Translations under genes and position numbers: made by a program
Assembly: GCA_022791255.1 (NCBI GenBank)
Contig: JAAVYR010000009.1
Location: forward strand, 1 to 51,661
From: Peptococcaceae bacterium
GTDB taxonomy: Bacteria; Bacillota; Dehalobacteriia; UBA4068; JAAVYR01
Direction of reading: 5' to 3'
Length of the DNA stretch: 51,661 nucleotides
Notes under the pieces: model-generated
Told to the model about the DNA's origin: nothing
What the model saw: only the letters and a program-made list of their open reading frames with translations
Database searches by the model: none
Part shown: positions 17,773-37,224 of the stretch, piece after piece
How the letters are laid out: the number at the start of each line of letters is the position of its first letter
Position numbering within the stretch: the first letter of the stretch is position 1

Positions 17773-17786
17773 ATTATTTGGGTGCG
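17758..17786. other. left attachment site of the integrative element
   Basis: The 15-base core GCAGATGGTAAGGGC (17758-17772) is identical to 35887-35901. Just inside, ATTTGGGTGCG (17776-17786) is the inverted partner of GGCGCCCAAAT (35866-35876) at the other end, matching at 9 of 11 bases. Host feoB sequence lies to the left of the core. Confidence 0.85.
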
Positions 17787-19387
17787 TATTGAAACTTGAA
17801 ATAAATATCAATTTGCTGCTGTTTTACCCCGTTTATGTATTCCCCCTGGTGTACCTCAATGCGGTCGATGAGGGTGAAAAGCAAATCACTGTCTAAACTT
17901 TCTAAGTCTGTATATTGGTCGATTAACTCCTGAAATTGGCAAAACCGCTGTTGCAGATCTTCCTGGTTGTTTCGTTGTTTTTCTCTTGCCTGGTAGGCTG
18001 CCAGTTTCTTTTGGCAAGCGTTCTTTTCCTTTTGATACCGTTGTTGTAGCTGCTCAAATTGTTCCTTATCGATTGTGCCGTTGTATTTGTCGTCATATAA
18101 CTGTTCCAGCTTGTTGTTGATGACTTCCAGTTGCTTTTCTAATTCCTCTTGAGAAGAACTCCCTTGTGTTGCTGTTTCTGCAAGCATCTCTGCAAGTAGC
18201 CGCTGTTTTTCCGCTTTACTGAAATGGATTTGCTCTTGTAACGCTTTTAGCACTGCTTGATACAAGGTGTCGTAACCAATGGTGTGGTTGGTGCAGGCTT
18301 TCTTTCCGGCCAGCTTGTAGCCGCCACAGTTGAGATTGGCTGTTGTGCCCTTTTTCCTGGTTCCCACCGTAGACATGTTTTTGCTGCAGTCGGCGCATTT
18401 AGCAAGGCCGGAGAATAGATTGACGAAGCCCTTTTCCCGTTTCTGGGAGCGGCTTTGCAGCTTCTTTCGCACCGTATTCCAGGTCTCCTCACTGATTAAC
18501 GGCTCGTGGGTGTTTTGCACGGTAATCCACTCTGCTTTGGGCTTGGCGTAGGTAAACTTGCTTTTGAAGGTAGGCTTTGCCGTTTTACCCTGGACGGTGT
18601 GTCCGAGATACACCTCATTGCGGAGGATTTTGCTTACGGTCTGTCCCTGCCATTCCTTGGCAACAGTGAAACTGGTAGGGGGTAGGTGGGGATTTTTGGC
18701 GTAACGATATTGAGAAGGTGTAGGGTATGCTTTCTCATTGAGAATTGCTGCAATCTGCCGAGGGCTATGCCCTGCCGCAGCCAGAGCAAAGATTTCTTTG
18801 ACCATAGTGGCGGCTGTTTTATCAACAACTAAGTGATTTTTATTGGTAGGATCTTTGCTATAACCAAAAGGTGCAAAGGCGCCGATAAATTCCCCCTCTT
18901 GCATTTTAATGTCCAGAGCAGCGTGGATTTTCCCGGAAATGTCCGCCGCGTAAAGTTCGTTGACGAAGTTGTGCATGGGGGTAACAATGTTGTTGGTGTA
19001 AGTTCGCTGAGCGGTGTCGATGCCCTCGCTGACGGAGATGTAACGAACCCGGTGCAGGGGAAAATATTCGTCGATGAGCAGGTTGACTCGACCGCTGTTT
19101 CTGCCTAGACGAGATAAATCCTTGGTAAGTACCACATTGATTTTCCCAGTTTCGATATCCTCTTGCATTTGGCGGAAGGCGGGGCGGTCCATGGTGGTGC
19201 CGGAGTAGCCGTCGTCTACATATTCATCATGGATGAGCAGGTGGTTTTCGCGGGCGTAGCTTTGAAGGATTTTCCGCTGGGTCTCGATAGAGGCGCTTTC
19301 GCTGCCTTTGTCGTCTTCTTTCGAAAGGCGCATGTAGAGGGCGCAGGAGCTTGTCTTTGTTTGATACTGGGTTGATTTTGAGCTCAT
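17774..19387 (-). CDS. large serine recombinase (integrase of the element)
   Basis: This 537-residue protein has an N-terminal resolvase catalytic domain (YMRLSKED with catalytic S22; DLSRLGRN), a recombinase domain (about 165-290), a Cys-rich zinc ribbon (CADC ... NCGGYKLAGKKACTNH) and a C-terminal coiled coil rich in Glu, Gln and Lys. Length and domain order match LSRs of the TnpX/TndX kind found in Clostridia. AAGGAG eight bases ahead supports the ATG at 19387. The gene ends one base from the att core and is transcribed outward into the feoB 3' part. Confidence 0.93.
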   Translation of the reverse strand: MSSKSTQYQTKTSSCALYMRLSKEDDKGSESASIETQRKILQSYARENHLLIHDEYVDDGYSGTTMDRPAFRQMQEDIETGKINVVLTKDLSRLGRNSGRVNLLIDEYFPLHRVRYISVSEGIDTAQRTYTNNIVTPMHNFVNELYAADISGKIHAALDIKMQEGEFIGAFAPFGYSKDPTNKNHLVVDKTAATMVKEIFALAAAGHSPRQIAAILNEKAYPTPSQYRYAKNPHLPPTSFTVAKEWQGQTVSKILRNEVYLGHTVQGKTAKPTFKSKFTYAKPKAEWITVQNTHEPLISEETWNTVRKKLQSRSQKREKGFVNLFSGLAKCADCSKNMSTVGTRKKGTTANLNCGGYKLAGKKACTNHTIGYDTLYQAVLKALQEQIHFSKAEKQRLLAEMLAETATQGSSSQEELEKQLEVINNKLEQLYDDKYNGTIDKEQFEQLQQRYQKEKNACQKKLAAYQAREKQRNNQEDLQQRFCQFQELIDQYTDLESLDSDLLFTLIDRIEVHQGEYINGVKQQQIDIYFKFQYAPK

Positions 19388-19427
19388 GGTTTCTCCTTTC
19401 TGCCAAATCAACCCATTGTTTGCAGGA

Positions 19428-19580
19428 TTATTTTATCACCCGGGCTTGATTTGCTGCCAGTTGCCGCGCTTTTTTCCGCAAAAAGTCTTTCATAATGTTC
19501 TCTAATAAGGCGTCGCTGACAGAATGAAGATTGACGGTAAGTTGTTCTTTTGCTTTGGGGTTTTGCTCCTGATTTTTCAT
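19428..19580 (-). CDS. small 50-residue protein upstream of the large serine recombinase
   Basis: The ATG at 19580 has AAGGAGG ten bases upstream and the frame ends with TAA at 19428. The product starts MKNQEQNPKAKEQLTVNLHS and continues with a charged helical part (LLENIMKDFLRKKARQLA). It precedes the recombinase by 40 bases on the same strand. Small helical proteins occur beside recombinases of Tn4451-like elements (e.g. TnpW), and recombination directionality factors are also small. Neither identity is shown here. Confidence 0.65.
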   Translation of the reverse strand: MKNQEQNPKAKEQLTVNLHSVSDALLENIMKDFLRKKARQLAANQARVIK

Positions 19581-19666
19581 TCTGCCGCGCCTCCTTTTGC
19601 TTCAGTTTATGCAGGAGAGGCCTGTCCTATGAGGTTATCGTTTAAGTACATTTAGTGGGACATGGT

Positions 19667-19695
19667 TAGACAAAATTATTTCTCAATGATATAAT
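19667..19695 (+). promoter_or_regulatory. promoter of the DUF262 gene
   Basis: TAGACA (19667-19672) and TATAAT (19690-19695) have a 17-base spacer, about 65 bases before the start codon. Confidence 0.7.
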
Positions 19696-19760
19696 TTAAT
19701 TTATTAAGTCTGGTTGTTTATATAGAAATAGTAGATTTTATGATTGATAGGAGGCGCCCT

Positions 19761-21542
19761 ATGGGGAACGAGCTATTTAAAAATATTCCCAGTAAAGTTG
19801 AAGATTTGGTGAAGGGTGTGCGAATGGGGCGAATTGGGCTTCCTGATCTTCAGAGACCCTTTGTTTGGAAAGATAATAAAGTGCGTGAGTTGTTTGACTC
19901 TATGCTTAAGGGATACCCGATTGGTTATGTGATGCTATGGGAGTCGCCGATTGGCTATGAGAGTAAAACGAGCACAATTGGAGGTAATTCTAAAACTTAC
20001 GAGGACCCTAAAGAACTGGTCATTGATGGGCAACAGCGTCTGACTGCATTGGTAGCGGCCATGTATGGTATCAAAGTGAAGGATAAAAATTTTACGGATA
20101 GAGAAATTAAGATTTCTTATAATCCGCTAACTTGTGAATTTGCTGTCTGGTCTCAAGCTTATGAAAAAGATGCAGAATGGATTTCCCGAATTAGCGATGT
20201 TTTTCTTGCTAAAGAAAACAATACCATTAGTTCACTTCGCCGTAATTTTATAAAAGAGCTCAATGAGGGGCGCAGTAAGAAGGGGAGTTCATTGTTAACA
20301 GATGCGGAAGAAGATTTGATTGAAAGCAATATTAACAGATTGCTAAATCTTTCTGATTATGCGCTTCCTACCTTAGAAATTAGTTATGCGGCGGATGAGG
20401 AAGCTGTAGCGGATATTTTTGTTCGAGTGAATTCTGGTGGGCAAAGCCTAACAGAAAATAATTTTATACAGACCTTACTTTCTGTATATGATAATGAAAC
20501 CAGTGATAAAATTAACACTTTTGCTGCCAGTTCTCGGGTTCCGGCAAAAAATACTTCTTATAATACCCTGCTGGCTGTTGAACCTTCTCATCTTATTCGC
20601 ATGGCGGTAGGGGTTGGGTTTAAACGGGCGCGCCTCAAATATGCTTATATGTTATTGCGCGGTAAAAATCTGGAAACGGGGAAGTTTTCGGATGAGGTTC
20701 GACAAGAAAATCTCCAAATTTTCAAAGCTGCGCTAGATAAAGCCATGAACCTTAATAATTGGCATGAGTTTATCAATATTGTGGCAGAAGCTGGCTATGT
20801 TAGTGAGAAGTTGATTGCTTCGTCTAATGCGGTAGTATTCAGTTACATACTTTATTTGATTGCAAAATATGATTATAAACTAAGTGCGATGCAACTCAAA
20901 AAATGTATTAGTAAGTGGTTTTTTATGAGCACGATTACATATTTTTATACTGGTTCGGCCGAGTCTGAGGTGGAAAAACAATTTGCAGATTTGCGAGATG
21001 TTCATACTGCAGACGAGTTTGTTGCCTATCTTGACCAAGCCATTGCTACTCGTTTTACTGATGACTATTTTAATCTGACTCTTCCCAGTGAGCTAAACAG
21101 TTCTTCTGCCATTTCTCCTGCTTGGTATGGTTATGTAGCTGCGCAGATAGTGTTGGATACTCCTATACTGTTTAGTAATACTTTGGTTTCTAAGTATTTT
21201 GTCCTTGGGGCCAGCGGTACCAAAAATGCTATTGATAAGCATCATATTTTCCCCAAGAATTATTTGACAACGCTTGGATATCGCAGCGACCGTGAGCGTA
21301 ATCAAATAGCAAACTTTGCTTATATTGACTATGCTAGAAATATTGATATTTCGGATAGAGCACCTCAAGATTATGTTGCAGACTATCGGCAGCAACTTGG
21401 GGAAGAAGCCTATTGCAAGATTTGTGAAGAGCACGCTTTACCCGAAAATTTTGAGAGGATGGAGTATATGGAGTTTTTAAATCAGCGCCGTGTACTTATG
21501 GCTCAGGTTGTTCGGAAAGCATATGTTAGACTCTGTAAGTAA
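19761..21542 (+). CDS. DUF262/HNH protein, GmrSD-like type IV defence family
   Basis: This 593-residue protein has an N-terminal DUF262 (GmrS-like ParB/Srx fold) domain with LPDLQRPFVWK and the nucleotide-binding DGQQRLTAL. The C-terminal DUF1524-like HNH motif is DKHHIFPKNYL near residue 485. Fused proteins of this kind are linked to restriction of modified phage DNA. The ATG at 19761 is chosen over 19740 because GGAGG lies six bases before it. It has its own promoter and terminator and sits beside a type I restriction system in the same element. Confidence 0.85.
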   Translation: MGNELFKNIPSKVEDLVKGVRMGRIGLPDLQRPFVWKDNKVRELFDSMLKGYPIGYVMLWESPIGYESKTSTIGGNSKTYEDPKELVIDGQQRLTALVAAMYGIKVKDKNFTDREIKISYNPLTCEFAVWSQAYEKDAEWISRISDVFLAKENNTISSLRRNFIKELNEGRSKKGSSLLTDAEEDLIESNINRLLNLSDYALPTLEISYAADEEAVADIFVRVNSGGQSLTENNFIQTLLSVYDNETSDKINTFAASSRVPAKNTSYNTLLAVEPSHLIRMAVGVGFKRARLKYAYMLLRGKNLETGKFSDEVRQENLQIFKAALDKAMNLNNWHEFINIVAEAGYVSEKLIASSNAVVFSYILYLIAKYDYKLSAMQLKKCISKWFFMSTITYFYTGSAESEVEKQFADLRDVHTADEFVAYLDQAIATRFTDDYFNLTLPSELNSSSAISPAWYGYVAAQIVLDTPILFSNTLVSKYFVLGASGTKNAIDKHHIFPKNYLTTLGYRSDRERNQIANFAYIDYARNIDISDRAPQDYVADYRQQLGEEAYCKICEEHALPENFERMEYMEFLNQRRVLMAQVVRKAYVRLCK

Positions 21543-21605
21543 ATTTATGAAAGATAGAATTTTGATATTGTTTAGTTGCAAAAGATAAAAAAATGTATTT
21601 GTAAT

Positions 21606-21642
21606 AAAAGATGAAAACCCATGTTTTCATCTTTTATTTTTT
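21606..21642 (+). terminator. terminator of the DUF262 gene
   Basis: AAAAGATGAAAAC pairs with GTTTTCATCTTTT around CCAT and is followed by ATTTTTT. Confidence 0.88.
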
Positions 21643-21737
21643 GTACCATATTAAAAATCGAAGATTTTATTGTCTTATAGTGCTTTGCCTTTCTTATGCT
21701 TATGAAGAAGCATTTTGTGTTCCTGCAAGCATGGCAT

Positions 21738-22466
<729 letters not shown>

Positions 22467-22468
<2 letters not shown>

Positions 22469-22500
22469 GGTTGCAAGAAAGTTTACTTTCCTGCAACCCT
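22467..22500. repeat. left inverted site (IRL) and hairpin
   Basis: A near-perfect 34-base palindrome has arms AGGGTTGCA(A/G)GAAAGT and a central TT at 22483-22484. Its part 22478-22496 is the exact reverse complement of 22597-22615. It may also act as the terminator of the recombinase gene, although the T-run after it is poor. Confidence 0.8.
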
Positions 22501-22615
22501 ATTTGTACCTATATATTTTATATAGGATACCACATTTTTCAGCTTTTCTCAAGGTTTTCTTACAACATTTCCTTGAAAAATTGTACTTAATTGCATTTGC
22601 AGGAAAGTAAACTTT
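22478..22615. other. putative invertible promoter segment
   Basis: AAAGTTTACTTTCCTGCAA (22478-22496) and TTGCAGGAAAGTAAACTTT (22597-22615) are perfect inverted 19-mers flanking 100 bases. Each contains GAAAGT-NN-ACTTT with central TT or AA, so their dinucleotides are oppositely oriented, as inversion requires. Inside, on the minus strand, TTGAGA (22552-22547) and TATCCT (22529-22524) with a 17-base spacer and TGG extension form a promoter pointing left, away from the surface genes. Inversion would move its -10 to about 22564-22569, pointing right, with a leader of roughly 135 bases to the ATG at 22712. Confidence 0.65.
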
Positions 22616-22616
22616 T
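22597..22616. repeat. right inverted site (IRR)
   Basis: TTGCAGGAAAGTAAACTTT with central AA at 22609-22610 is the inverted partner of 22478-22496. Confidence 0.75.
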
Positions 22617-22711
22617 TTGTAGTTATGGGCAATCAAATGTAGGGCAAGATGATGACCGTAGATAAATGGACTCTGTGAGGCCAGATATATCGTCATAATG
22701 AGGTGAGAGGA

Positions 22712-25561
22712 ATGAAAAATACTTGTCTAAAAAAACAAATGATGGTGTTGTTGGTATCATTGTTGGTTGTTTTTTTATTTAGTACTGTTGCTTTTGGAAT
22801 AGAGACTTCTGGTACTTGTGGGGACAATGTAACTTGGAGTTTTGATGAAACAAGCGGTACGCTGACTATTAGTGGTAATGGAGAGATAGCAAATTTTCAA
22901 TATTCGCAAGCTGCCCCTTGGGTAGATATGAGAGATCGTATAACTACAGTTGTTATTGAGGAAGGGGTAACTAGCATTGGTAATGATGCATTTAGGAATT
23001 GTAATAATATTGCTACTGTTAAGATACCAAAAAGTATGTTGAGTTTGGGAAATTGGTCTTTTCCGTATTATCCGCAGTCTAGCATGAAAGATCTTCAATA
23101 TGCAGGGTCTATAGATGAATGGATGGCAATGGGTAATGGCGAGAACCATGGTGTTACTTGTGGTGATGGCGTAACTTATTATCCGTGTGGTGAAACTACT
23201 TACGGTTTTTTTGAGCGTTCTACTCGGACGCTGTATGTGAGAGGCAGTGGAGAGATAGGCGCGCATGGGGACTGGGAGGACATTAAAGAATTTACAAAAA
23301 AAATAAAAATTGAGAATGGTATAACTGATGTTGGTTATAGTGCTTTTAGTGCCTTTAAGGCTGTAACAGAAGTTGAAATACCTGACACTGTTGTTACAAT
23401 TGATGCAGGTGCGTTTCATGGGCTAGCTATTTCCCATATTACAATTCCTAGTTCTGTGAAGCATATTTATGGCTCAGACTATTGGTATACGGGGGCCTTT
23501 AAATCTTGCAGTCAGCTTGTAGATATTACCTTACCGGATGGCCTAATAACACTAGGAGATCATATTTTTGCAGAGTGTTATAATTTGCCATATGTTGATA
23601 TTCCTGCTAGCGTAACAGAAATCGGTCCCGCTGCATTTTTAGCATGCCGTAATTTAAATAACATTGTGCTTCCAGAAGGAATAGATAAAATTGCAGAGCG
23701 TACATTTCAATATTGTTATAAATTAGACCATATTGAGATACCAGAGAATGTGACCAGCATCGGAGGGAGTGCATTTCAAAAATGTACTAGTCTAACGAAT
23801 ATTGTTCTTCCAGAAAAGGTAGTGTCTATTGGTGGAGAGGCTTTCGATGGTTGTGAGGCATTACAAACAATAACCATTCCGAAAGCTATGGACCAAATCA
23901 GTTCTGACGCCTTTCTCGGCTGCGATAATCTGGATTTGGTCTATTATGATGGTACTGCTGCTGAGTGGAATAATATTCTGATTGCTGATGGCAATGAGCC
24001 TTTATTGCAGGCAGCAAGAAAATACAGTGATAGTACGGACTGTATAGTGATTTTCCATAAAAATAATGAAGAGCCTATTTCTTATCAGTGGGTTAATATA
24101 GGAGAGGCTGTAGAAGAACCGAATAAGCCTAAGCGAGCAGACTATGTTTTTCGAGGTTGGTATAGCGATAAAGAGCTGACAACAAAATATGATTTTAGCA
24201 CGCCCGTTACCAGTGATATCCGACTGTATGCCAAATGGGCTAGGAGCAGTGGGACCAGGCAATGTGGAGACGATGTGTGGTGGACTTTGCGGGATAATCA
24301 GTTGTCTATTAGTGGCAGTGGCGATATGTGGGATTATAACGATGTTGCGCCTGCGCCTTGGCGTGATTATGCCCCCGATATTGAGTCTGTGGTAATTGCT
24401 CCAGGGGTTACTAGTGTGGGAAGTTATGCCTTTGCGAGCTGTGCAAATTTGACCGATGTTAGTGTTCCAAAAGGGGTTTGTACCATTGGCGATGGAGCTT
24501 TTTCCGGTTGTTCTAGTCTGACAGAAATCGATTTACCGGAAGGTATTACCATGATTGGTTCTTTTGCCTTTTCTAATTGTGGTTTGATGGAGTTTGCTTT
24601 TCCGGAAGGGGTAACAAGTATTAATTTAGCTGCTCTTTGCGATTGCAGCAGTTTAAGACAAGTGACGATACCTGCCAGTGCAATTACTGCTTATACTGAG
24701 AGAAGCTTTGAAGATAGAGCATTTTTTTATAACTTTACTGGCTGCAGCAATTTGGAGCGGTTTATCGTAGCGCCGGGGAATACAAAATATATTTCCATCA
24801 ACGGTGTCTTGGTTTGTCAGCTTAAAGAGGCTGAAAGACTTTTGGTTTCTTGTCCTACTAAAAAGAAGGCAGTGGAAATTCCCTGTGATATAACAGATAT
24901 TTTTTATAGTGCATTTCGAAATTGTACGGATTTAGAAACCGTGTATTATGAGGGCACGGAAGACCAGTGGAGAGACATATATGTTGAAGAGGGGAATGAG
25001 TCGTTACTTAATGCAAATATGATTTATAACAGCCATATGCCGGAAGCCTCCCTTTCTGGTGCGATTATCAGCTGGAACAATCGAGACGATGCTGTTATTC
25101 GTCTTTATGACAGTGCGTTGACAGACGCTGTTATCAAGGCAGATACTGCTGGTGCGCAGGCTGTTTATTCTGCAGCGAAGGGAGGTGTGACCGCTGGTGG
25201 GGATGGTAAACACTTCCGACAAAGCTTTACCTTTGAAGGGGTAGGCTCAGGCAGCTATAAGTTGTTGGTTGCAAAACCCGGCAAATATGTGCCGCAAATC
25301 ATTGCTGTATCCGTAGAGGAAGGGGCGGTAGTGTTAGATGATATTACGCTTTGGCTCTATGGAGACCTGAACAATGATGGCAGGATAAATTCAAAAGATG
25401 TTACGCAGCTGTCTCGTTACACAGCTGGGAATTTAGGTCGGGTTAATAAATTAGATATGATTGGTGATGTAAACTCAGATGGCAGAGTAAATTCCAAGGA
25501 TGTTACCCAATTAAGCAAATATACAGCAGGAAATAGTTCCTCACTAGATAAAATCCAATAA
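22712..25561 (+). CDS. secreted BspA-like leucine-rich repeat protein with C-terminal dockerin
   Basis: This protein has about 949 residues: a signal peptide (1-30), then two blocks of LRR_5/BspA-type repeats (about 73-416 and 553-770; recurring FxNCxxLxxVxIPxxVxxIG). Between them lies an InlB B-repeat-like unit (RADYVFRGWYSDKELTTKYDF, about 443-510). The C-terminus is a dockerin at about 880-945: two calcium loops GDLNNDGRINSKDVTQLSRY and GDVNSDGRVNSKDVTQLSKY. The dockerin should dock to a cohesin, and the next gene encodes one. The ATG at 22712 follows GAGGTGAGAGGA; the longer frame from a GTG at 22703 is less likely. No fixed rightward promoter is evident between the invertible segment and this gene. 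Confidence 0.88.
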   Translation: MKNTCLKKQMMVLLVSLLVVFLFSTVAFGIETSGTCGDNVTWSFDETSGTLTISGNGEIANFQYSQAAPWVDMRDRITTVVIEEGVTSIGNDAFRNCNNIATVKIPKSMLSLGNWSFPYYPQSSMKDLQYAGSIDEWMAMGNGENHGVTCGDGVTYYPCGETTYGFFERSTRTLYVRGSGEIGAHGDWEDIKEFTKKIKIENGITDVGYSAFSAFKAVTEVEIPDTVVTIDAGAFHGLAISHITIPSSVKHIYGSDYWYTGAFKSCSQLVDITLPDGLITLGDHIFAECYNLPYVDIPASVTEIGPAAFLACRNLNNIVLPEGIDKIAERTFQYCYKLDHIEIPENVTSIGGSAFQKCTSLTNIVLPEKVVSIGGEAFDGCEALQTITIPKAMDQISSDAFLGCDNLDLVYYDGTAAEWNNILIADGNEPLLQAARKYSDSTDCIVIFHKNNEEPISYQWVNIGEAVEEPNKPKRADYVFRGWYSDKELTTKYDFSTPVTSDIRLYAKWARSSGTRQCGDDVWWTLRDNQLSISGSGDMWDYNDVAPAPWRDYAPDIESVVIAPGVTSVGSYAFASCANLTDVSVPKGVCTIGDGAFSGCSSLTEIDLPEGITMIGSFAFSNCGLMEFAFPEGVTSINLAALCDCSSLRQVTIPASAITAYTERSFEDRAFFYNFTGCSNLERFIVAPGNTKYISINGVLVCQLKEAERLLVSCPTKKKAVEIPCDITDIFYSAFRNCTDLETVYYEGTEDQWRDIYVEEGNESLLNANMIYNSHMPEASLSGAIISWNNRDDAVIRLYDSALTDAVIKADTAGAQAVYSAAKGGVTAGGDGKHFRQSFTFEGVGSGSYKLLVAKPGKYVPQIIAVSVEEGAVVLDDITLWLYGDLNNDGRINSKDVTQLSRYTAGNLGRVNKLDMIGDVNSDGRVNSKDVTQLSKYTAGNSSSLDKIQ

Positions 25562-25609
25562 CCTTTTTGAAATTTGTTTAAGTAATATTTACAACAAGGA
25601 GAGTCAATC

Positions 25610-28495
25610 ATGAAAAAAGCATTGGTTTTATTATTAACCTTATCTCTAGTTCTGGGCTGCTTTTGTTTTTCTGCCTTGGCAGCAGATGGGAAAGCAACCT
25701 TTCAGGTTACAGGTGTAACTGGTTCTGAAATCAAAGCTGGAGATAAAATTACCGTTGCAATTACTGTGCCTGCTGCGAAAAGTCCTGTTTCCAGTGGGCA
25801 AATCAAAGTATTCTTTGATAAAGATGTATTAGAAGCAAAATCTATTACGGCTGCTGGCATTGAAGCATTTACCCTTTCTAGTGTAACCGAACCACAGAAT
25901 GCCAATAACAACGCTTGGTATAATGCGTCTATTGCAAATCAAAGCAATGTGACTATGACAAAGCCCGTAACGCTCACTGCTGTTTTTCAGGTGAAAAGCA
26001 ATGCTGCGATAGGGGAAAAGACAGATTTAATCCGTCTGGAAACGGACCCGGGCGATTATTACTGGGCAAATGAAGATGATGAAGATGTGGAAATTGCCGG
26101 CTTTGACGGAACACCTTCTTTCTCTGCCACAGTGGTAAAGAGTAGCATAAGCGGCCAATTATCTCTAACTCAAGCAGGCTGCACCTATGGAGAAACTTTA
26201 GCAGACCCTGCCTATACAAAACCCCAAGGCACTACCAAAGAAATTGTTACCTATAGCGGCACTCTGCGTAAAGGCGGCGAATATACAGAAACTGCTACCA
26301 AGCCTACAGAAGCTGGTAGTTACACTGTAAAAGTTGTTTGTGAAGCAGCTAATGCGACCTATACCGATAGTAAGAATTTCACCATTGCACCGCTGAATAT
26401 TACTGGAGCGGAAGTGGTGTTAGACGGCTCTTTAACCTATAACGGTGCAGAACAAACTCAAAATATTACTTCTGTGACCAAAGGCAGCGTGGTAGTTCCT
26501 GCTACTGATTATACTTTAGCCGGTAATGCTGGTACTGACGCGGGGAATTATACCTTAACCATTACTGCAAAAGACGCTAGTAACTTTACAGGTAAGGTAA
26601 CTAAGGCATTTACCATTGCCAAGAAGGCCATTACTCCAACGGTGGAAATTACCGGGACTTATCAATATAACGGTAAAGCGCAAAATCCAACCTACACTGT
26701 AAAAGATAATGGTGTAGAGCTTGCCGCTGCAGAATATACCGCTGCTGTTGCCAATAACATCAATGCCGGGAAAGGCGTATTGACCATTAAGGTAAAAGCG
26801 GATAGTAACTACACTTTCTCTGATGTGGTAAAAGAATTTGATATTGCCAAAGCAAGCGCTCAAACAATCGGTAATTTACCAATTTCTCATAAATATACTT
26901 TAACTGGGGAGCAAACTAAAAATATTGCGGCTCTCATGACGGGAACTCCTGGAAATATGACCTATGCAAAAGGTGCAGCTACTGGTGATACGGCGATTGT
27001 TTCTGCCTGGGATGTAAATGCCAGCGGTGTCTTAAGCTATACCCTAGCCGGTGGCACAGCAGGGCAGACTGTTACTTTACCTATTACCATTTCTTCTGTA
27101 AACTATGAGGATACGCCTGTTAATGTAATCATTACTTTGACGGAAAAAGAAGGACAGGCAGAGTTGAAAATTACTGGCAACGATACTGTGGTTTATGGCA
27201 ATACCTTGAAGCTGGGTACAACTGGCGGTTCTGGGAGCGGTGCTGTAACCTATGCTGTTACCAATAGCACTGGAGAAGCAACCATTGATGCAGCGACTGG
27301 TGTATTGACTACTGTAAAAGCAGGTACCGTTCAAGTGGTTGCAACCAAAGCAGAGGATGCAGACTATGCAGTAGCTATCAGCGCACCTTTGACCATCACC
27401 ATTGAAAAGGCTGTGCCGACAGGCGCTCCTAGCTACACTAAAATTACCCAAAGCGGTAAGACCTTAGCTGATGCAAACCTTGCTATTGGCACCATCAAAC
27501 CCATTGGCGGCACCATCGCTTGGGAATTGGCTGATACTACAGAAGTAAAGGCCAATACCAGTTACAAGTGGGTTTATACACCGGCTGATCCTGTAAACTA
27601 TGAAACTTTGACTGGCTCTGTAAAACTCTATGCAACAGGCAGCTCTATTGGCGGTGGCGGCAGCCATAGCGGTGGTAGCTCTTCCAGTGGCTCTAGCAAA
27701 TATAGTGTAACTGCTGAAAAGGCTAGTAATGGTACTATTAGCTTGGATGTGACAAGGGCTGCAAAAGGTGATAAAGTAACTATCACTGTAAAACCGGATA
27801 ACGGTTATGTGTTGGATAAATTATCTGTTTATGATGAAAAAGGTAAAGATATTACAGTAAAGAGCAGCGGCAGTCAATATACCTTTATCATGATTGATGG
27901 TAAAGTAACCGTATCTGCTACCTTCAAAAAAGCGGATGGGGAAACAGATAAAGACAACAGCGGCAAGAGTCCGTTTACCGATGTGAAGGAAAACGACTAT
28001 TTCTACAATGCTGTTATGTGGGCAGTAGAAAAAGATATTACCAAGGGAACAAATGATACTACCTTTGGTGCTGGTGCTAACTGCACTCGCGGCCAAATGA
28101 TGACTTTCTTGTGGCGGGCAGCTGGTGCGCCGGAAGTAACAGCTACTAGCAATCCATTTACGGATGTGGCGGGGGATAGCTACTACGCAAAGGCTGTGCT
28201 TTGGGCAGTGGAAAACGGCATTACCAATGGTATGACAGAAAACACCTTTGCGCCAAATGCTACCGTAACTCGTGGTCAGACAGCAGCTATGCTTTATCGC
28301 TTTGCCAAAGCCTCTGCGCCGGAAGCTGGTAATGGCTTTGTCGATGTGGCAAAAGATGCATACTATTATGATGCGGTACAATGGGCTGCGGAAAACGGTA
28401 TTACCAATGGGGTAAGCGATACTGCTTTTGCTCCTGGTAATGACTGCTTGCGCAGTGAAATCGTAACCTTCCTCTATCGTTATTTTGTGAAATAG
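25610..28495 (+). CDS. secreted cohesin-like, SLH-anchored surface scaffold protein
   Basis: This 961-residue protein has a signal peptide (1-25), then a cohesin-like domain (about 27-175: KAGDKITVAITV, GQIKVFFDKDVLEAKSITA, LTAVFQVKSNAAIG). Several MBG/Ig-like repeats follow (about 180-690; YNGAEQTQNI, YQYNGKAQNPTYTV). Then come a Ser/Gly linker (GGGGSHSGGSSSSGSS), an InlB-like beta domain and three SLH repeats at about 788-961. SLH repeats bind secondary cell-wall polymer, so the cohesin would be displayed at the surface and could hold the dockerin of the upstream protein. It lies 48 bases downstream of that gene with its own AAGGAGAG RBS, in the same operon, and is followed by a strong terminator. 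Confidence 0.85.
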   Translation: MKKALVLLLTLSLVLGCFCFSALAADGKATFQVTGVTGSEIKAGDKITVAITVPAAKSPVSSGQIKVFFDKDVLEAKSITAAGIEAFTLSSVTEPQNANNNAWYNASIANQSNVTMTKPVTLTAVFQVKSNAAIGEKTDLIRLETDPGDYYWANEDDEDVEIAGFDGTPSFSATVVKSSISGQLSLTQAGCTYGETLADPAYTKPQGTTKEIVTYSGTLRKGGEYTETATKPTEAGSYTVKVVCEAANATYTDSKNFTIAPLNITGAEVVLDGSLTYNGAEQTQNITSVTKGSVVVPATDYTLAGNAGTDAGNYTLTITAKDASNFTGKVTKAFTIAKKAITPTVEITGTYQYNGKAQNPTYTVKDNGVELAAAEYTAAVANNINAGKGVLTIKVKADSNYTFSDVVKEFDIAKASAQTIGNLPISHKYTLTGEQTKNIAALMTGTPGNMTYAKGAATGDTAIVSAWDVNASGVLSYTLAGGTAGQTVTLPITISSVNYEDTPVNVIITLTEKEGQAELKITGNDTVVYGNTLKLGTTGGSGSGAVTYAVTNSTGEATIDAATGVLTTVKAGTVQVVATKAEDADYAVAISAPLTITIEKAVPTGAPSYTKITQSGKTLADANLAIGTIKPIGGTIAWELADTTEVKANTSYKWVYTPADPVNYETLTGSVKLYATGSSIGGGGSHSGGSSSSGSSKYSVTAEKASNGTISLDVTRAAKGDKVTITVKPDNGYVLDKLSVYDEKGKDITVKSSGSQYTFIMIDGKVTVSATFKKADGETDKDNSGKSPFTDVKENDYFYNAVMWAVEKDITKGTNDTTFGAGANCTRGQMMTFLWRAAGAPEVTATSNPFTDVAGDSYYAKAVLWAVENGITNGMTENTFAPNATVTRGQTAAMLYRFAKASAPEAGNGFVDVAKDAYYYDAVQWAAENGITNGVSDTAFAPGNDCLRSEIVTFLYRYFVK

Positions 28496-28526
28496 AAAAT
28501 GATTGTGAATAAAAAGTAATCAAAAT

Positions 28527-28570
28527 AAAAAAGAAGACAGTAAATAGATTTATTTACTGTCTTCTTTTTT
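28527..28570 (+). terminator. terminator of the surface operon
   Basis: AAAAAAGAAGACAGTAAAT pairs with the complementary run ending in GTCTTCTTTTTT. Confidence 0.9.
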
Positions 28571-28679
28571 ATATATTATTTGGTGGAAATTCAGAATAAA
28601 AGATACTATTGCAATTAACGAAGAAACCAGGTGGTGTTATCTTTATATTCTACTTGCCTTTTTATTGTTTTTATGTTTT

Positions 28680-28701
28680 AATTAAATAAATTTATTTAAT
28701 T
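28680..28701. promoter_or_regulatory. 22-bp perfect palindrome, probable operator of the HTH regulator
   Basis: AATTAAATAAA (28680-28690) is followed directly by its exact complement TTTATTTAATT (28691-28701). It lies just before the AAGGAGG of the regulator gene. This is a fitting place for autorepression of the restriction-modification operon, or for an mRNA hairpin at the RBS. Confidence 0.55.
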
Positions 28702-28720
28702 AGTTAAAAGGAGGGATATT

Positions 28721-29083
28721 GTGCGAGTTAGAACCTTTGGCAAATATTTAAGAGAACTAAGAGAAAACAGAGGTTTATCTCAAGGGGAACTTGGAAAAAA
28801 AGTAAGGAGAACGGCAATGGCAATTTCCCTTTTTGAAAAAGGGACAAACAATCCACCTAACAATAATTTATTGAATGCGTTAATCAGGGCTCTAGAGCTT
28901 AGCGACGAAGAAGCTGATATGTTACGGAACCTTTCTGCGATAGAACGGAATGAGCTTCCAAATGATATAAGCAATTATATTAAAAATCATATGGATGTAT
29001 TTAATGCAATCCGAAGAGGTATGCGACAAAACAAAAAATCGACAGATTGGGAAAATGTATTTAAAGGAGCGGGTCAATTATGA
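28721..29083 (+). CDS. HTH (Xre/Cro family) regulator of the restriction-modification operon
   Basis: This 120-residue protein has an N-terminal helix-turn-helix (LRELRENRGLSQGELGKKVRRTAMAISLFEKG) like lambda Cro and restriction controller proteins, and a C-terminal helical part. It starts at a GTG with AAGGAGGGA eight bases upstream. Its stop overlaps the hsdM start (ATGA), so the two are co-translated. Control of hsd expression through the palindrome at 28680 is inferred. Confidence 0.85.
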   Translation: MRVRTFGKYLRELRENRGLSQGELGKKVRRTAMAISLFEKGTNNPPNNNLLNALIRALELSDEEADMLRNLSAIERNELPNDISNYIKNHMDVFNAIRRGMRQNKKSTDWENVFKGAGQL

Positions 29084-31050
29084 GTTTTGCAGATAAAGCC
29101 AACTTTATATGGAGTGTTGCAGATTTGTTGCGAGGGGATTTTAAGCAAAGCGAATACGGAAAGGTTATACTTCCGTTTACTGTTTTACGCCGCTTCGACT
29201 GTGTGCTCGCACCGTCCAAAGAAAAAGTTTTGGAACTTAACAAATCACTTACTGTTCAAAATAAGTTACCCGTATTTAAAAAGATTACAGGTAATGATTA
29301 CTATAATATAAGTAAGTTCGATTTTAAAAAGCTGGTTGATGATTCGTTAAATATAGATACAAATCTTCGTGATTATATTAACGGATTTTCGGATGATGTC
29401 AGAGAAATTCTTGATAACTTTGAGATTTTCACCATAATAGACAAGCTAAAAAAGTCCAATCTTTTATATTTAGTGGTCCAAAAGTTTGCGCAACTTGACC
29501 TTGGTATTGACACAGTTGATAATCTTGAAATGGGCTATATGTATGAGGAACTTATTAGAAAATTTTCTGAACTTTCTAATGAAACAGCCGGGGAACACTT
29601 TACCCCTCGCGAGGTTATTGAGCTTATGGTAGAACTTTTATTTGACTCTGATATGGACGAGCTTTCCAAAGACGGCAAAGTTGTAACCATATTTGACCCG
29701 GCTTGCGGAACAGGAGGGATGCTTTCTGTCGCTCAGAATAAAATGCTCGACTTAAATAACAATATGACGGTTATTCCATTCGGTCAGGAGCTAAATCCCG
29801 AAACATATGCAACCTGTAAATCTGACATGATTTTAAAAGGTAATAACAATAGCCGCATTGTACTTGGTAACAGCTTTAATGAAGACGGATTTGCAAACGA
29901 AAAGTTCGATTATATGCTTTCTAATCCACCGTTTGGCGTTGAATGGAAGAAGGTTGAAAAATTTATTAAAGACGAAGCGAAAACGAAAGGATATCACGGC
30001 AGATTTGGCGCAGGAACCCCGAGAATTTCCGATGGTTCTCTTTTGTTCTTACAACATATGATTTCAAAAATGAACATGCCAAAAGACGGTGGAAGCCGTA
30101 TCGCTATCGTATTTAACGGCTCACCTCTTTTTACAGGAGATGCTGGCAGCGGCGAAAGTGAGATAAGACGCTGGCTAATTGAGAACGATATGCTTGAAGC
30201 GATTGTGGCTCTCCCCGATCAGCTTTTCTATAACACGGGTATATCTACCTATATCTGGATTGTAACTAACCGAAAAGAAGAACGCAGAAAGGGAAAAGTG
30301 CGCCTTGTAAACGGTGTTGCATATTTTGAAAAAATGCGTAAATCTTTAGGTAATAAGCGAAATCTCATTGATGAAGTCAGCAGAAAAGCCATTGTTAATT
30401 TATATGCAACTATGGAACCAAAAGAGGATTATATTGATTTTGATAATAGTGATTTTGGATATCATAAAATCACAGTTGAAAGACCGTTAAGATTGGCTTA
30501 TTCGACAAAGGAAGAGAATTTAAAGATTTTGTCGGAGGTAGATACATTTATTCGTTGGAAGGAAAATATCAGTAAGGGGGCAGAATCTCCGTTTTACATA
30601 AAGTTGCAAGAATTATTAAGAGAAATAGATCAAAGTAAAGTGTTTTTAAATAAAAAAGATTTTGAAATTATCCTTAATGAGAAGTTAAAAGACTATGAAA
30701 ATGAGCTAAAAGGGCGCAAGGATAAGCTTCTTTCTTGTCTTAGTGAGGTAAATCCGGATGCGGATATTGCCTATGATAAAAAGGGTAACAAAATTCCCGA
30801 TACAAACCTAAGAGATACTGAAACAGTTCCTCTGAAAGAGAATATTCAGGAATATTTCGAAAGAGAGGTTCTGCCGCATGTTCCCGATGCGTGGATTGAT
30901 GAAAGCAAAACAAAGGTAGGCTATGAAATTCCGTTTACAAGGTATTTTTACAAGTTCACGCCTCTTAGAAACAGCGCTGATATTATGGCCGAAATTAAGG
31001 AGCTGGAGGCGAAGATCAGCAAGGAACTGCTGGAGGTGCTGGGAGAATGA
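29080..31050 (+). CDS. hsdM: type I restriction-modification system, methyltransferase subunit
   Basis: This 656-residue N6-adenine methyltransferase starts with an N-terminal HsdM_N helical domain (about 5-145). FTPREVIELMVELL precedes the SAM-binding motif I, FDPACGTGGML (about 205-215). The catalytic NPPFGVEW motif (N-P-P-F) is near residue 285. The C-terminal region is long and charged, for contact with HsdS. With HsdS it methylates the recognition site. It overlaps the regulator upstream and hsdS downstream by 4 bases each. It is noticeably more AT-rich than the host genes. Confidence 0.94.
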   Translation: MSFADKANFIWSVADLLRGDFKQSEYGKVILPFTVLRRFDCVLAPSKEKVLELNKSLTVQNKLPVFKKITGNDYYNISKFDFKKLVDDSLNIDTNLRDYINGFSDDVREILDNFEIFTIIDKLKKSNLLYLVVQKFAQLDLGIDTVDNLEMGYMYEELIRKFSELSNETAGEHFTPREVIELMVELLFDSDMDELSKDGKVVTIFDPACGTGGMLSVAQNKMLDLNNNMTVIPFGQELNPETYATCKSDMILKGNNNSRIVLGNSFNEDGFANEKFDYMLSNPPFGVEWKKVEKFIKDEAKTKGYHGRFGAGTPRISDGSLLFLQHMISKMNMPKDGGSRIAIVFNGSPLFTGDAGSGESEIRRWLIENDMLEAIVALPDQLFYNTGISTYIWIVTNRKEERRKGKVRLVNGVAYFEKMRKSLGNKRNLIDEVSRKAIVNLYATMEPKEDYIDFDNSDFGYHKITVERPLRLAYSTKEENLKILSEVDTFIRWKENISKGAESPFYIKLQELLREIDQSKVFLNKKDFEIILNEKLKDYENELKGRKDKLLSCLSEVNPDADIAYDKKGNKIPDTNLRDTETVPLKENIQEYFEREVLPHVPDAWIDESKTKVGYEIPFTRYFYKFTPLRNSADIMAEIKELEAKISKELLEVLGE

Positions 31051-32319
31051 AACCGTATAAAGAGTATAAAGACAGCGGCGTGCCTTGGATTGGGAAGATA
31101 CCGAAGGATTGGGGAGTTAAGAAATTAAAATATATATTTAAAATAAATATGGGACAATCTCCTGATGTTGATAAATGCAATAATGAAAAAATGGGAATAC
31201 CTTTTTTACAAGGGAAAAAGGATTTTGGTATAATTTCACCTATTGCTACTACTTATTGTACGGAACCCAAAAAAAATAGCTTTAGCAAATGATATAATGA
31301 TGTCTGTCAGAGCTCCTGTTGGCGATATAAATATAGCAGATATCGAGTATTGTATAGGTAGAGGCTTATGCGCATTAACCCCGTTAAAAATGAATATTAA
31401 TTATTCTTGGTATATGCTTTCTTGTATATCAGAACCGTTAAAAATGCTATCCACCGGTACAACATATGAAGCTGTTTCTATTGATGACATTAAAAACATT
31501 TATATTGTTTATCCGAAAAAAAATATTCAGTCAAAAATATCAGATTATCTTGACCGAAAGATTGCTGCTATTGATACACTGATAGCGGACAAGCAAAAAA
31601 TGATTGAGTTGTTAAAAGAAAGCAGACAAGCTATCATAAGCGAAGCAGTAACAAAAGGACTTGATAAAAATGCAAAAATGAAGGATAGCGGTATTGAATG
31701 GATAGGAGAAATACCGGAGGATTGGGAAGTTGTTCCAATTACAAAATATCTAAATAGTCTTATTGATTATCGTGGAAAAACTCCAAACAAGGTTGAGGAA
31801 GGAATTTTTTTAGTAACAGCTCGTAATATAAAAAATGGAATTATTGACTACTCTCTTTCTCAAGAGTATGTTTCTATATGTGAATATGAGAGTATTATGC
31901 ATCGTGGCAAACCTCAGATTGGAGATGTTCTGTTTACTACGGAGGCTCCATTAGGAGAAGTTGCAAATATAGATAATGAAGATATTGCTTTAGCTCAGCG
32001 TGTAATAAAATTTTGTGGTAAAGATAATATTCTAAATAATTATTATCTGAAATATTGGATGTTGTCATCTAAATTTAAAGAGTTCCTTTTATCTCTTTCT
32101 ACGGGTTCTACCGCAGAAGGTATAAAAGGAAGTAAGTTATTCTTACTAAAAATGCCTATTCCTCAAATTGATATACAAAAAACAATAGTTATATTTCTTG
32201 ACAAAAAGACAACAGAAATAGACAACCTCATAATTGATATAACAACGCAAATCGAAAAACTCAAAGAATACCGTCAGGCAATTATATCCGAGGCGGTAAC
32301 GGGAAAGGTGGAAATATAA
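31047..32319 (+). pseudogene. hsdS: type I restriction specificity subunit, frameshifted at an A8 tract
   Basis: This is two overlapping frames of a single hsdS. The first frame (from ATG 31047) reads to ...YCTEPKK then NSFSK and stops at 31292. The second frame continues correctly as IALANDIMMSVRAPVGD to 32319. The switch lies in a run of eight A at 31269-31276; seven A would restore one protein of about 423 residues. Both halves carry the repeated HsdS features: KDSGVPWIGKIPKDW and KDSGIEWIGEIPEDW before each target recognition domain, and two RQAIISEAVT helices. It could be truly broken, phase-variable by slippage, or a sequencing error in the homopolymer. Confidence 0.88.
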
Positions 32320-35297
32320 TGGCAATCCAAACAAAAGAAATCAATTTTGAAAATGAGATTGAGTATGCTTTAATTGAAAACGGTCATTATGTGAAAGGTA
32401 ATCCATCTGATTTCAATAGAGAATATGCAATTGATACCGCTAAGCTGTTTGAGTTTTTGCAAAACAGCCAACCTGACGAATGGAAAAAGCTGTGCGAAAA
32501 ACATGGAGCTAATGCGGAACAAAATTTTCTGAAAAGACTATCCAAAGAACTTGACAACCGTGGTATGCTTGATGTTTTGCGAAAAGGTGTAGTTGATGCA
32601 CCCGCAAAATTTAAACTATGCTATTTTAAGCCGGCGAGCAACATGAACCAAACCGATACCGCCAATTATACAAAGAATATTTTATCGGTGACAAGGCAGG
32701 TACACTATTCTTTGAAAAATGAAAACTCTATTGATGTTGTTTTATTTATAAATGGACTGCCTGTTGTTACAATGGAACTTAAAAATCAAATAACAGGCCA
32801 GACTGTAGAAAACGCAAAAAGGCAGTATAAATATGATAGAGATTGCCGAGAACTTTTGCTGGGGTTCAAGTCAAGATGTCTTGTCCATTTTGCGGTCGAT
32901 ACAGATGAAGTTTATATGACAACAAAACTTGATGGAGTAAACACATACTTTTTGCCATTCAATAAAGGCAATAATGGTGGCAAGGGTAATCCGCAGGGCA
33001 ATGGAAATTATCGTACATCATATCTGTGGAATGAAATTTTGCAAAAGGACAGTCTGTTGGATATTATTCAAAGGTTTGTTCATCTTAAAGTAAGTGATAA
33101 CGGTAAAAAGGAAACACTTATTTTTCCTCGTTATCATCAGCTTGATGTGGTAAGAAAAACCATTTTTGATGTTAAGAAAAATGGTGCGGGAATAAATTAT
33201 TTGATCCAGCACAGTGCAGGCAGCGGAAAGTCCAATTCTATTGCATGGCTTGCACATCATCTCTCAAGTCTGCATGATGATAATGATAAAATCATATTTA
33301 ACAGTATTATTGTTATAACTGACCGTATTGTTTTAGATAGACAACTGCAAGATACTATTTATCAATTTGAGCAAGTTGAGGGAGTTGTTATAAAAATAGA
33401 CCAGAGTTCCTCTCAGCTTGCAGATGCTCTTAATACTGGCAAGAAAATAATTGTAACAACTTTGCAGAAATTTCCTTTCATACTTGCAAAAATCGGTGAT
33501 TTATCTGGGAAAAATTTTGCAATTATTATTGATGAGGCCCATTCATCTCAAACAGGTGAAGCTAGTAAAAAGCTCAAGGCGGTATTGGGCGATGCATATC
33601 AGGGATTAAGCGAAGAAGAAAAATTGCAGAAAATAGCAGAAGATGAGGCAAAAGAAGAAAAATCAGTCGTAGACCATGAGGATGAGATTACGAAAGAAAT
33701 GGCAATTCATGGCAAGCTTAAAAATCTTTCATTTTTTGCATTCACTGCTACGCCAAAGCCAAAAACACTTGAAATGTTTGGAACAATAGGCGATGATAAC
33801 TTACCTCATCCTTTTCATTTGTATTCTATGCGTCAGGCTATCGAAGAAGGCTTTATTCTTGATGTATTGAAAAACTATATGACATATGATACTTATTTCA
33901 AAATAGGTAAAACGATTGCCGCTGACCCAAAATATAATAAAGCAAAAGGTAATAAAGCGCTGGGAAAATTTTTAAGCTTGCATCCACACAATTTAGCACA
34001 GAAAACACAAATTATGGTGGAGCATTTCAGAACCATTACCAAAAATAAAATCGGCGGCAATGCTAAAGCCATGCTTGTAACAGGTTCGAGACTTCATGCA
34101 GTTAGATATTATTTTGCATTTAAAGATTATATTAAGAAAATGGGTTATGAAAAAGAATTGGGTATTTTAGTCGCATTTTCCGGCACTGTTTTTGATAATG
34201 GAGAGGAATATACTGAAACAAATCTTAATAAAATCAAAGAAAGCGAGTTGCCCAAAACCTTCCATGAAAAGGAATATCAAGTTTTACTTGTTGCCGAAAA
34301 GTATCAGACGGGTTTTGATGAACCATTGCTGCATACGATGTTTGTTGATAAAAAGCTCGGTGGTGTAAAGGCGGTTCAAACGCTTTCAAGGCTCAATCGT
34401 ATTTGCAAGGGAAAGGAAGATACTTTTGTGCTTGACTTTGTAAATTCTGCTGAAGATATAAAAAAGGCATTTGAGCCGTATTATGAGGAAACAAATATTT
34501 CAGAAGTAACCGATATAAATATTGTTTATGATTTGAAATCAAAACTGGATGAATATCGTATATATTGGGATTCCGAAATAGAGAATTTCAGCAAAGTTTT
34601 CTTCAAAAAAAGTACGAAACAAGAAAACATAGATTTCGGAATGTTGAACGCATATATTGATCCTGCTGTTGACAGATTTAAAGGAAAAACTGAAAAAGAA
34701 CAAGACGATTTTAAATCTCAACTTGCAAAATTTACGAGAACATATTCCTTTGTAACAAGTATTGCGAAACTTGATGATAGGCAATTACACAAATTTCATG
34801 CTTATGCAAAGCTACTTTTAAGGAAATTACCTAAAGATAGTTTAGGAAATTCGATAAATTTAGATGATGAGGTATCCCTTCAATACTATCGTTTACAGAA
34901 AATTTTTGAAGGCAGTATTGAGCTTGAAAAGGCTGAACCATTACCAAATAATAAATATGCGGAAACGGGGAAAAAATCTGATGAAGAAACTTTATTATCA
35001 GAATTAATCGAAAATATAAATGAGCGCTTTGGAACAGAGTTTGAAGAGGTGGATAAAGTTCTGATGCAGTTTGTTGCCGATATGGAGAAAAATGATAATT
35101 TGCGAACACAAGCTATGAATAATTCCAAAGAACATTTTAAATTTCCGTTCAATGATGCTTTTATGGAAATTGTTGTTGAGCGTATGATACAGAATGATGC
35201 TTTTTGTACAAAGATTTTAGATGATGAAAAATTTCGGAACGAAATATCTGAACTTATGGTTGGATATGTTTATGATAAACTAAGAGCAGGTATTTAA
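32319..35297 (+). CDS. hsdR: type I restriction enzyme, ATP-dependent endonuclease/translocase subunit
   Basis: This 992-residue protein has an N-terminal nuclease domain with the PD-(D/E)xK core (D in SIDVVLFING, then ELK in TMELKNQITG). Walker A is HSAGSGKSNSIAW (about residue 305), the DEAH box is IIIDEAHSSQ, motif III is FAFTATPK, and TGFDEPLLHTMFVDK lies in the second RecA domain. It cleaves unmodified DNA after translocation. Its start overlaps the hsdS stop (TAATG), so all hsd genes form one operon. Confidence 0.95.
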   Translation: MAIQTKEINFENEIEYALIENGHYVKGNPSDFNREYAIDTAKLFEFLQNSQPDEWKKLCEKHGANAEQNFLKRLSKELDNRGMLDVLRKGVVDAPAKFKLCYFKPASNMNQTDTANYTKNILSVTRQVHYSLKNENSIDVVLFINGLPVVTMELKNQITGQTVENAKRQYKYDRDCRELLLGFKSRCLVHFAVDTDEVYMTTKLDGVNTYFLPFNKGNNGGKGNPQGNGNYRTSYLWNEILQKDSLLDIIQRFVHLKVSDNGKKETLIFPRYHQLDVVRKTIFDVKKNGAGINYLIQHSAGSGKSNSIAWLAHHLSSLHDDNDKIIFNSIIVITDRIVLDRQLQDTIYQFEQVEGVVIKIDQSSSQLADALNTGKKIIVTTLQKFPFILAKIGDLSGKNFAIIIDEAHSSQTGEASKKLKAVLGDAYQGLSEEEKLQKIAEDEAKEEKSVVDHEDEITKEMAIHGKLKNLSFFAFTATPKPKTLEMFGTIGDDNLPHPFHLYSMRQAIEEGFILDVLKNYMTYDTYFKIGKTIAADPKYNKAKGNKALGKFLSLHPHNLAQKTQIMVEHFRTITKNKIGGNAKAMLVTGSRLHAVRYYFAFKDYIKKMGYEKELGILVAFSGTVFDNGEEYTETNLNKIKESELPKTFHEKEYQVLLVAEKYQTGFDEPLLHTMFVDKKLGGVKAVQTLSRLNRICKGKEDTFVLDFVNSAEDIKKAFEPYYEETNISEVTDINIVYDLKSKLDEYRIYWDSEIENFSKVFFKKSTKQENIDFGMLNAYIDPAVDRFKGKTEKEQDDFKSQLAKFTRTYSFVTSIAKLDDRQLHKFHAYAKLLLRKLPKDSLGNSINLDDEVSLQYYRLQKIFEGSIELEKAEPLPNNKYAETGKKSDEETLLSELIENINERFGTEFEEVDKVLMQFVADMEKNDNLRTQAMNNSKEHFKFPFNDAFMEIVVERMIQNDAFCTKILDDEKFRNEISELMVGYVYDKLRAGI

Positions 35298-35394
35298 TGG
35301 ATTTTGCATATTTTCAATTAAAGAACAGCTTTGCTGGGCTACTATATGGCATTGACTGACGGCTCAGAAAATCATGATTTGCGGGAGAGATATT

Positions 35395-35808: not shown

Positions 35809-35865
35809 TAATTCATCTTTTCTGCAAACAATGAGCGGATGCTGGCGTTATACTGGTGTTTTGAT

Positions 35866-35901
35866 GGCGCCCAAATGCGACTCTTAGCAGATGGTAAGGG
35901 C
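35866..35901. other. right attachment site of the integrative element
   Basis: GGCGCCCAAAT (35866-35876) is the inverted arm inside the element, followed by the core GCAGATGGTAAGGGC (35887-35901). Joined to the left end, these form an attP of about 50 bases with 11-base arms centred on the core. The element supplies the stop codon TAA (minus strand, 35886-35884) right after the interrupted feoB codons. Confidence 0.85.
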
Positions 35902-37161: not shown

Positions 37162-37224
37162 GTTGTTCCTCCCACTCATTTTCTCTTCTTCCTCTTTGAC
37201 TCTCTGTTTCTCTGTTTTTTTATA

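Follow-up and report, generated by a model that had tools for sequence, protein, structure and literature searches.

Many bacteria that make no cellulosome nevertheless have orphan dockerins and cohesins, for most of which no partner is known. What such modules might join together is a question raised in compact form by two neighbouring genes in the 51,661-nucleotide stretch analysed here (the window; contig JAAVYR010000009.1, positions 1 to 51,661, assembly GCA_022791255.1), which comes from a Peptococcaceae bacterium, a small-genome anaerobe. The first open reading frame (ORF1) encodes an adhesin-like protein of leucine-rich repeats (LRR) that ends in a dockerin, and the second (ORF2) a protein that begins with a cohesin and ends in surface-layer homology (SLH) repeats. 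Both genes belong to a mobile island and stand behind a small recombinase gene and two inverted sites, and we consider the locus probably to be a mobile, phase-switchable, self-anchoring surface-adhesin cassette. Its parts are known singly; what appears to be new is that plug-in anchoring, switching and mobility come together outside a cellulose-degrading machine.

An adhesin and its candidate anchor

ORF1 (22712..25561, plus strand) starts with the ATG at 22712, which is preceded by the ribosome-binding site AGGTGAG; an in-frame GTG is also present at 22703. In its product, a signal peptide is followed by BspA-type LRR_5 repeats (310 bits), one Flg_new repeat and a C-terminal Dockerin_1 domain (Pfam). 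The latter, a type I dockerin with two calcium-loop repeats (25358..25522, plus strand), scores 42 bits against PF00404 within the whole protein and 65 bits as an isolated domain (cut-off 22.9), and it matches solved dockerins with a best E-value of 8.9e-11. Both loops are intact: the repeats, YGDLNNDGRINSKDVTQLSRYTAG and IGDVNSDGRVNSKDVTQLSKYTAG, agree at 19 of 24 positions, fit the pattern D-x-N-x-D-G-x-x-N-x-x-D and are each followed by the same residues, SKDVTQLS. In known dockerins, identical residues after both loops go with dual-mode binding.

ORF2 (25610..28495, plus strand) has its own ribosome-binding site, AAGGAGAG, and encodes, in this order, a signal peptide, a cohesin, Ig/MBG-like repeats, Flg_new_2 and three SLH repeats (Pfam). 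The cohesin (about 25703..26056, plus strand; PF00963 and Foldseek) was missed in the whole-protein scan and had to be isolated for detection, whereupon it scored 33.8 bits against PF00963 (curated cut-off 24.1; E 4.6e-8); a six-frame genome search recovered it with an E-value of 5e-8. An AlphaFold model made from the sequence of the domain alone has nine strands (predicted local distance difference test score, pLDDT, 62; predicted template-modelling score, pTM, 0.58), and its 14 best PDB matches in Foldseek are all cohesins (probability 0.97–1.00), with OlpC at rank 14 and OlpA (Coh-OlpA 3ul4) at rank 19. The E-values of these matches (0.004–0.03) are modest, as is to be expected with a model of low confidence. 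A profile built from six cohesins, that of ORF2 included, detects solved cohesins at 1.5e-6. By profile score and modelled fold, ORF2 is thus confirmed to begin with a genuine cohesin. At the other end, the SLH repeats (about 27974..28480, plus strand) reach 114 bits against PF00395 in three stretches, above the curated cut-off, and the host genome holds a member of the CsaB-type pyruvyltransferase family associated with the SLH-binding polymer. Taken together, the signal peptides, the SLH repeats and the CsaB-family member suggest that both products would be exported and bound at the wall.

The genes are co-oriented, with 48 bp between the stop of ORF1 and the start of ORF2, and a strong terminator-like hairpin of 20 pairs lies behind them (28525..28572, plus strand). 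Gene order, the closeness of the two genes, the separate ribosome-binding site of ORF2 and the common terminator point to a single operon. The initial annotation, which had described the ends of both proteins as a two-loop dockerin, a cohesin-like domain and three SLH repeats, and had placed their genes in one operon, is borne out in each of these respects.

A probable recombinase switch upstream of the operon

Is the pair constantly expressed? Upstream of ORF1 lies the gene for a small serine recombinase (21848..22468, plus strand; PF00239, 103 bits), a probable switch invertase that starts with the ATG at 21848 in a frame open from 21749. Its nearest solved relative is Sin/Tn552 bin3 (E 2.7e-26); against the Mpi family NF009949 it scores 38 bits (NCBIfam cut-off 272) and is not a member. 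Between this gene and ORF1 are two crossover-like sites, 126 bp apart. Site 1 (22471..22496) is a 26-bp dyad, TTGCAAGAAAGT-TT-ACTTTCCTGCAA, within a 40-bp imperfect palindrome, and site 2 (22597..22622) reads TTGCAGGAAAGT-AA-ACTTTTTTGTAG; reverse-complemented, site 2 is identical to site 1 at 23 of 26 positions, the cores being AA and TT. Allowing one mismatch, the longest inverted repeat here is 23 nucleotides, whereas 200 stretches drawn at random from the window gave none above 13; the 19-bp arm of the site has no further exact copy in the genome. The 124 bp thus framed (22485..22608) are a putative invertible promoter segment. Their best promoter-like match, TTGAGA-17-TATCCT with a TG before the −10 element, runs on the minus strand from 22552 to 22524, away from ORF1; after inversion it would face ORF1 at 143 bp from the start codon. 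Because the best match is directed away from the operon, the assembled orientation is probably the OFF state.

The same arrangement recurs with the recombinase family. Relatives were sought in 398 genomes, of which 24, including the host's, were positive; those in the 23 other genomes are 48–71% identical to the recombinase of the window. When 36 recombinase loci, the window and one viral contig among them, were compared with 998 control windows, paired dyads of the form AAAGT-NN-ACTTT, 95–187 bp apart, appeared at 14 of the 36 loci (window included) and in none of the controls. Twelve of the pairs have a non-palindromic 2-bp core, and in every one of them the core of one site is the reverse complement of the other, for which reason recombination between the sites would lead to inversion rather than deletion of the segment. 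A recombinase adjoining inverted paired sites with reverse-complementary cores is the arrangement that marks serine-recombinase invertible promoters. The neighbours of the sites include VWA/SpaA and LPXTG pilin proteins (L194), an exopolysaccharide-type sugar transferase (L201), a type IV leader peptidase (L205) and a weak TadZ match (L190); an amino acid permease (L216) is less telling. The phase variability that had been raised as a possibility for the pair is thereby strengthened, with inversion in living cells and the promoter itself predicted from the letters of the locus and its relatives.

Hin and Mpi are serine-recombinase promoter switches. The present locus shares with them a small serine recombinase, a short segment between inverted 26-bp dyads with a 2-bp core, and adjoining surface genes, and the recombinase would work like Mpi-type invertases. 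It differs in that the enzyme is nearest to Sin/Tn552 bin3 and far below the Mpi cut-off, the site is AAAGT-NN-ACTTT, the system is island-borne, and what it would control is a plug-and-anchor pair.

Besides the window, site pairs were seen at 13 loci (L183, L189, L190, L191, L194, L197, L201, L203, L205, L210, L216, L217 and L150). SLH protein genes adjoin relatives of the small recombinase at L184, L186, L209 and L210, with a site pair only at L210. One locus, G227:C265 (L217), was considered as a second complete cassette and rejected: it holds a recombinase with an internal stop, paired sites, a cohesin-SLH gene and an LRR gene, and amounts to a partial cassette only, the LRR protein being truncated by the contig end and the genome being without a detected dockerin.

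A mobile island within feoB

Recombinase, putative switch and operon all lie in an 18.1-kb serine-recombinase island inserted in feoB (17758..35886; 18,129 bp including one copy of a 15-bp repeat). The direct repeat, GCAGATGGTAAGGGC, flanks the island at 17758–17772 and 35887–35901, and in two congeneric genomes with an intact feoB (frames of 714 and 787 amino acids), homology ends at 17772 and restarts at 35887, i.e. these relatives retain the empty site. In the window, the 5′ part of feoB (35884..37179, minus strand; FeoB_N) and its 3′ part (16912..17811, minus strand; FeoB_C) stand on either side, with a Gate match among their domains, and the host genome keeps two further, more distant feoB-like genes. 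Just inside one end is the gene for a large serine recombinase (17774..19411, minus strand; Pfam Resolvase, Recombinase, Zn_ribbon_recom and DUF4368), the probable island integrase, which has a distant Ccr-like match. With a terminal serine recombinase, direct repeats at both ends and empty sites in relatives, the island has the features of an integrative element with a serine integrase, and the mobility proposed for the pair in the initial annotation stands on the target-site repeat and the two empty feoB sites. No conjugation genes were seen among the island genes in Pfam and NCBIfam scans, none of which was aimed at conjugation genes. Four scans of viral contigs (one dockerin, two cohesin and one integrase query) gave no matches, a tblastn search of plasmids with the anchor protein returned partial matches only, with those among the matches listed covering the SLH end, and a single dockerin locus came from one scan of genome contigs.

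How the cassette would work

The following sequence of events would account for these features. A serine-recombinase island has inserted into feoB and brought in the genes of two proteins with signal peptides: a BspA/LRR adhesin with a dockerin, and an anchor in which spacer repeats separate a cohesin from three SLH repeats. The SLH repeats of the anchor would bind a pyruvylated wall polymer, and the adhesin would dock onto the anchor via a calcium-dependent cohesin–dockerin bond. The upstream recombinase would flip the 124-bp segment between the inverted 26-bp sites and so turn a promoter towards or away from the operon, with the result that both surface genes would be switched on and off together.

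Other dockerins of the host and the cellulosome question

ORF1 is not the only dockerin gene of the host. A cluster on contig C23 (L010, G000:C23:116000-129667) encodes weak dockerins and an SLH protein whose weak cohesin match (17.5 bits) stays below the cut-off, and joined to it through contig C21 (L009) is a gene for a 3850-residue FN3 protein with a terminal dockerin. In the latter, the loops are followed by ALDKNTVV, in place of the SKDVTQLS of ORF1, a difference that fits a separate specificity. The gene of the FN3 protein reaches the end of C21 and seemingly continues on C23, the assembly breaking at a repeated dockerin sequence.

That the pair would work outside any cellulosome, as initially annotated, agrees with what the genome holds. 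Only one cohesin exceeds the cut-off, there are no glycoside hydrolases among the dockerin proteins identified, and glycoside hydrolase family 9 (GH9) was not found (other glycoside hydrolase families were not searched); as tested, the combination of a multi-cohesin scaffoldin with dockerin-bearing glycoside hydrolases that defines a cellulosome is absent. Within the same order, the 2.8-Mb genome G028 yields 60 matches to cohesins and 77 to dockerins, and many of the cohesins share their frame with a dockerin; a large cellulosome-like system would be one explanation, but there may be another.

Recurrence of the layout in other genomes

A survey of the phylum covered 299 genomes, 53 of them with a cohesin match. 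A dockerin gene is directly adjacent to 5 of 9 cohesin-SLH genes versus 3 of 27 SLH genes without a cohesin at the same loci (Fisher p 0.013), a fraction that is indicative only because dockerin positions guided the choice of the first batch of loci (a second batch comprised most of the remaining cohesin loci); with the window and the loci of its order included, the count is 9 of 13. The closest case, L090 from another family, follows the plan of the window: a 911-residue dockerin protein is followed by a 931-residue protein with a cohesin, repeats and three SLH repeats. At L069, an M64-peptidase/LRR/dockerin protein precedes a 453-residue protein with three SLH repeats, the N-terminal region of which is cohesin-like by eye only. 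Elsewhere the dockerin-linked payloads vary and include a subtilase, a beta-propeller, carboxypeptidase-regulatory-like repeats and a protein that looks metallophosphatase-like by eye.

Related layouts were seen in passing. Dockerin genes also adjoin cohesin genes without SLH repeats (L129, L136, L089, L091 and L093); at L091 and L093 a C-terminal hydrophobic end resembles a membrane anchor, and the dockerin proteins of L129 and L136 have cadherin-like matches, that of L129 also an SH3-like one. In many genomes of the phylum, a gene of about 680 codons with a C-terminal cohesin-like region precedes a gene whose product has a single SLH-like repeat at its N-terminus (L109, L113-L116, L118, L119, L122-L128, L130, L131, L137, L143 and L146-L148).

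Comparison with known systems

Anchoring scaffoldins that carry just one type I cohesin are known from Clostridium thermocellum (OlpA) and Acetivibrio cellulolyticus (ScaJ) (PMC3413522). Like OlpA-type anchors, the ORF2 product combines one cohesin with three SLH repeats, is predicted to be secreted and would be able to hold one dockerin partner at the cell surface; unlike them, its presumed partner is an LRR adhesin of the same operon, no cellulosome is involved, and the gene sits on a mobile island with an adjoining invertase switch. LRR proteins carrying dockerins occur in Ruminococcus flavefaciens (PMC4081043) and resemble the ORF1 product in joining leucine-rich repeats to a dockerin in a secreted protein, but they are parts of an extensive cellulosome that has numerous scaffoldins and carbohydrate-active enzymes (CAZymes) bearing dockerins. 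Non-cellulosomal cohesins and dockerins have been described in anaerobic methanotrophic (ANME) archaea (PMC9012536) and by Peer et al. (2009), as cited in PMC9012536 and PMC4081043. There as here, the modules would serve outside cellulose degradation; in those cases implications and partners are mostly unclear, whereas both presumed partners, the anchor and the switch are contained here in one operon-sized cassette. In the literature searched, no paper combined dockerins with invertible promoters, and dockerins and phase variation came together only in a general review of surface colonisation.

The initial annotation had also called such a complex unusual. This seems to hold for its association with mobility and an invertase switch; the plug-and-anchor layout itself is less unusual than supposed, because the phylum genomes, the host chromosome and the known OlpA-type anchors offer comparable cases.

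Competing explanations

Several observations count against a switchable, self-anchoring cassette. The ORF2 cohesin is only 19–25% identical to other aligned members of its family. ORF1 and ORF2 share a frame, and a read-through dockerin-linker-cohesin chain, folded without an alignment as a stand-in for the complex, gave a pLDDT of 49 and a pTM of 0.37; as this model is uninformative on binding, the calcium-dependent docking of the adhesin on the anchor is something we infer from the two modules. The adjacency statistic rests on nine genes at loci partly chosen by dockerin position, and 22 of the 36 recombinase loci are without a detectable site pair. Promoter matches in the switch region are no commoner than in shuffled sequence, which makes the argument from promoter orientation a weak one. 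Finally, partners could be exchanged, because dockerins occur elsewhere in the host and its chromosome carries a cohesin-like/SLH cluster. Pursued to its end, this last point would mean that the modules are real and not partners: the ORF2 cohesin would display host dockerin proteins such as the FN3 giant or members of the C23 cluster, the ORF1 dockerin would dock elsewhere, and the adjacency of the two genes would be mere clustering of surface genes. Such an outcome draws on those further dockerin proteins and the weak cohesin-SLH protein of the chromosome, and on the fact that cohesin–dockerin specificity is not readable from sequence alone. Against it speak the differing residues after the loops of ORF1 and the FN3 protein, the joint travel of the pair on the island, the recurrence of the adjacency in other families and the operon-like arrangement, and we regard it as unlikely. 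Since the presumed pair, anchor included, is encoded in one operon, the question of partners comes down to a two-protein binding assay.

Doubt may also fall on the switch. Were the inverted repeats terminators, or sites of recombinase autoregulation, an ordinary promoter would drive an operon that is not phase variable, and site 1 indeed lies at the recombinase stop codon, where its palindrome scores as a terminator-like hairpin. However, this hardly explains why dyad pairs at a spacing of 95–187 bp recur beside relatives of the recombinase and in none of the control windows, why their non-palindromic cores are always inverted, or why their neighbours are often of the usual phase-variable kinds; we think it quite improbable. 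Least plausible, and only barely worth entertaining, is a degenerate remnant in which dockerin and cohesin descend from a cellulosome-producing ancestor and have lost their function. The best PDB matches of the ORF1 dockerin are cellulosomal enzymes, and G028, of the same order, is rich in cohesin and dockerin matches; yet neither gene is truncated, each encodes a signal peptide, both calcium loops are intact, two congeners lack the island, the adhesin has no CAZyme domain and GH9 was not found. A self-anchoring adhesin under the control of an invertase therefore remains the reading that we prefer.

Implications

A broader generalisation, about which we are more doubtful than confident, is that Clostridia-like bacteria carry a class of transferable, invertase-switched cassettes in which payload and wall anchor are separate and joined by a private cohesin–dockerin pair. 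If true, payloads could be exchanged without altering the anchor, and many of the orphan dockerins that non-cellulolytic anaerobes have on LRR, protease and repeat proteins would find their missing receptors in cohesin-SLH anchors of this kind. An island-borne on/off switch for a plug-and-socket complex would, moreover, make cohesin–dockerin assembly a tool of surface variation as well. The recombinase/site family AAAGT-NN-ACTTT marks further candidate phase switches beside pilin, exopolysaccharide, type IV pilus and other surface genes.

Other genes of the island and the window

The remaining cargo of the island comprises a GmrSD_N/DUF262-type protein gene (19740..21542, plus strand; PF03235, 112 bits; PADLOC HEC-05, 113.8 bits), which probably serves defence, and a block with an XRE regulator and the type I restriction-modification genes hsdM, hsdS and hsdR (28721..35297, plus strand). 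Outside the island, a further SLH surface protein with Glug, aBig_2 and DUF4430 matches is encoded at 2630–7354 of the window.

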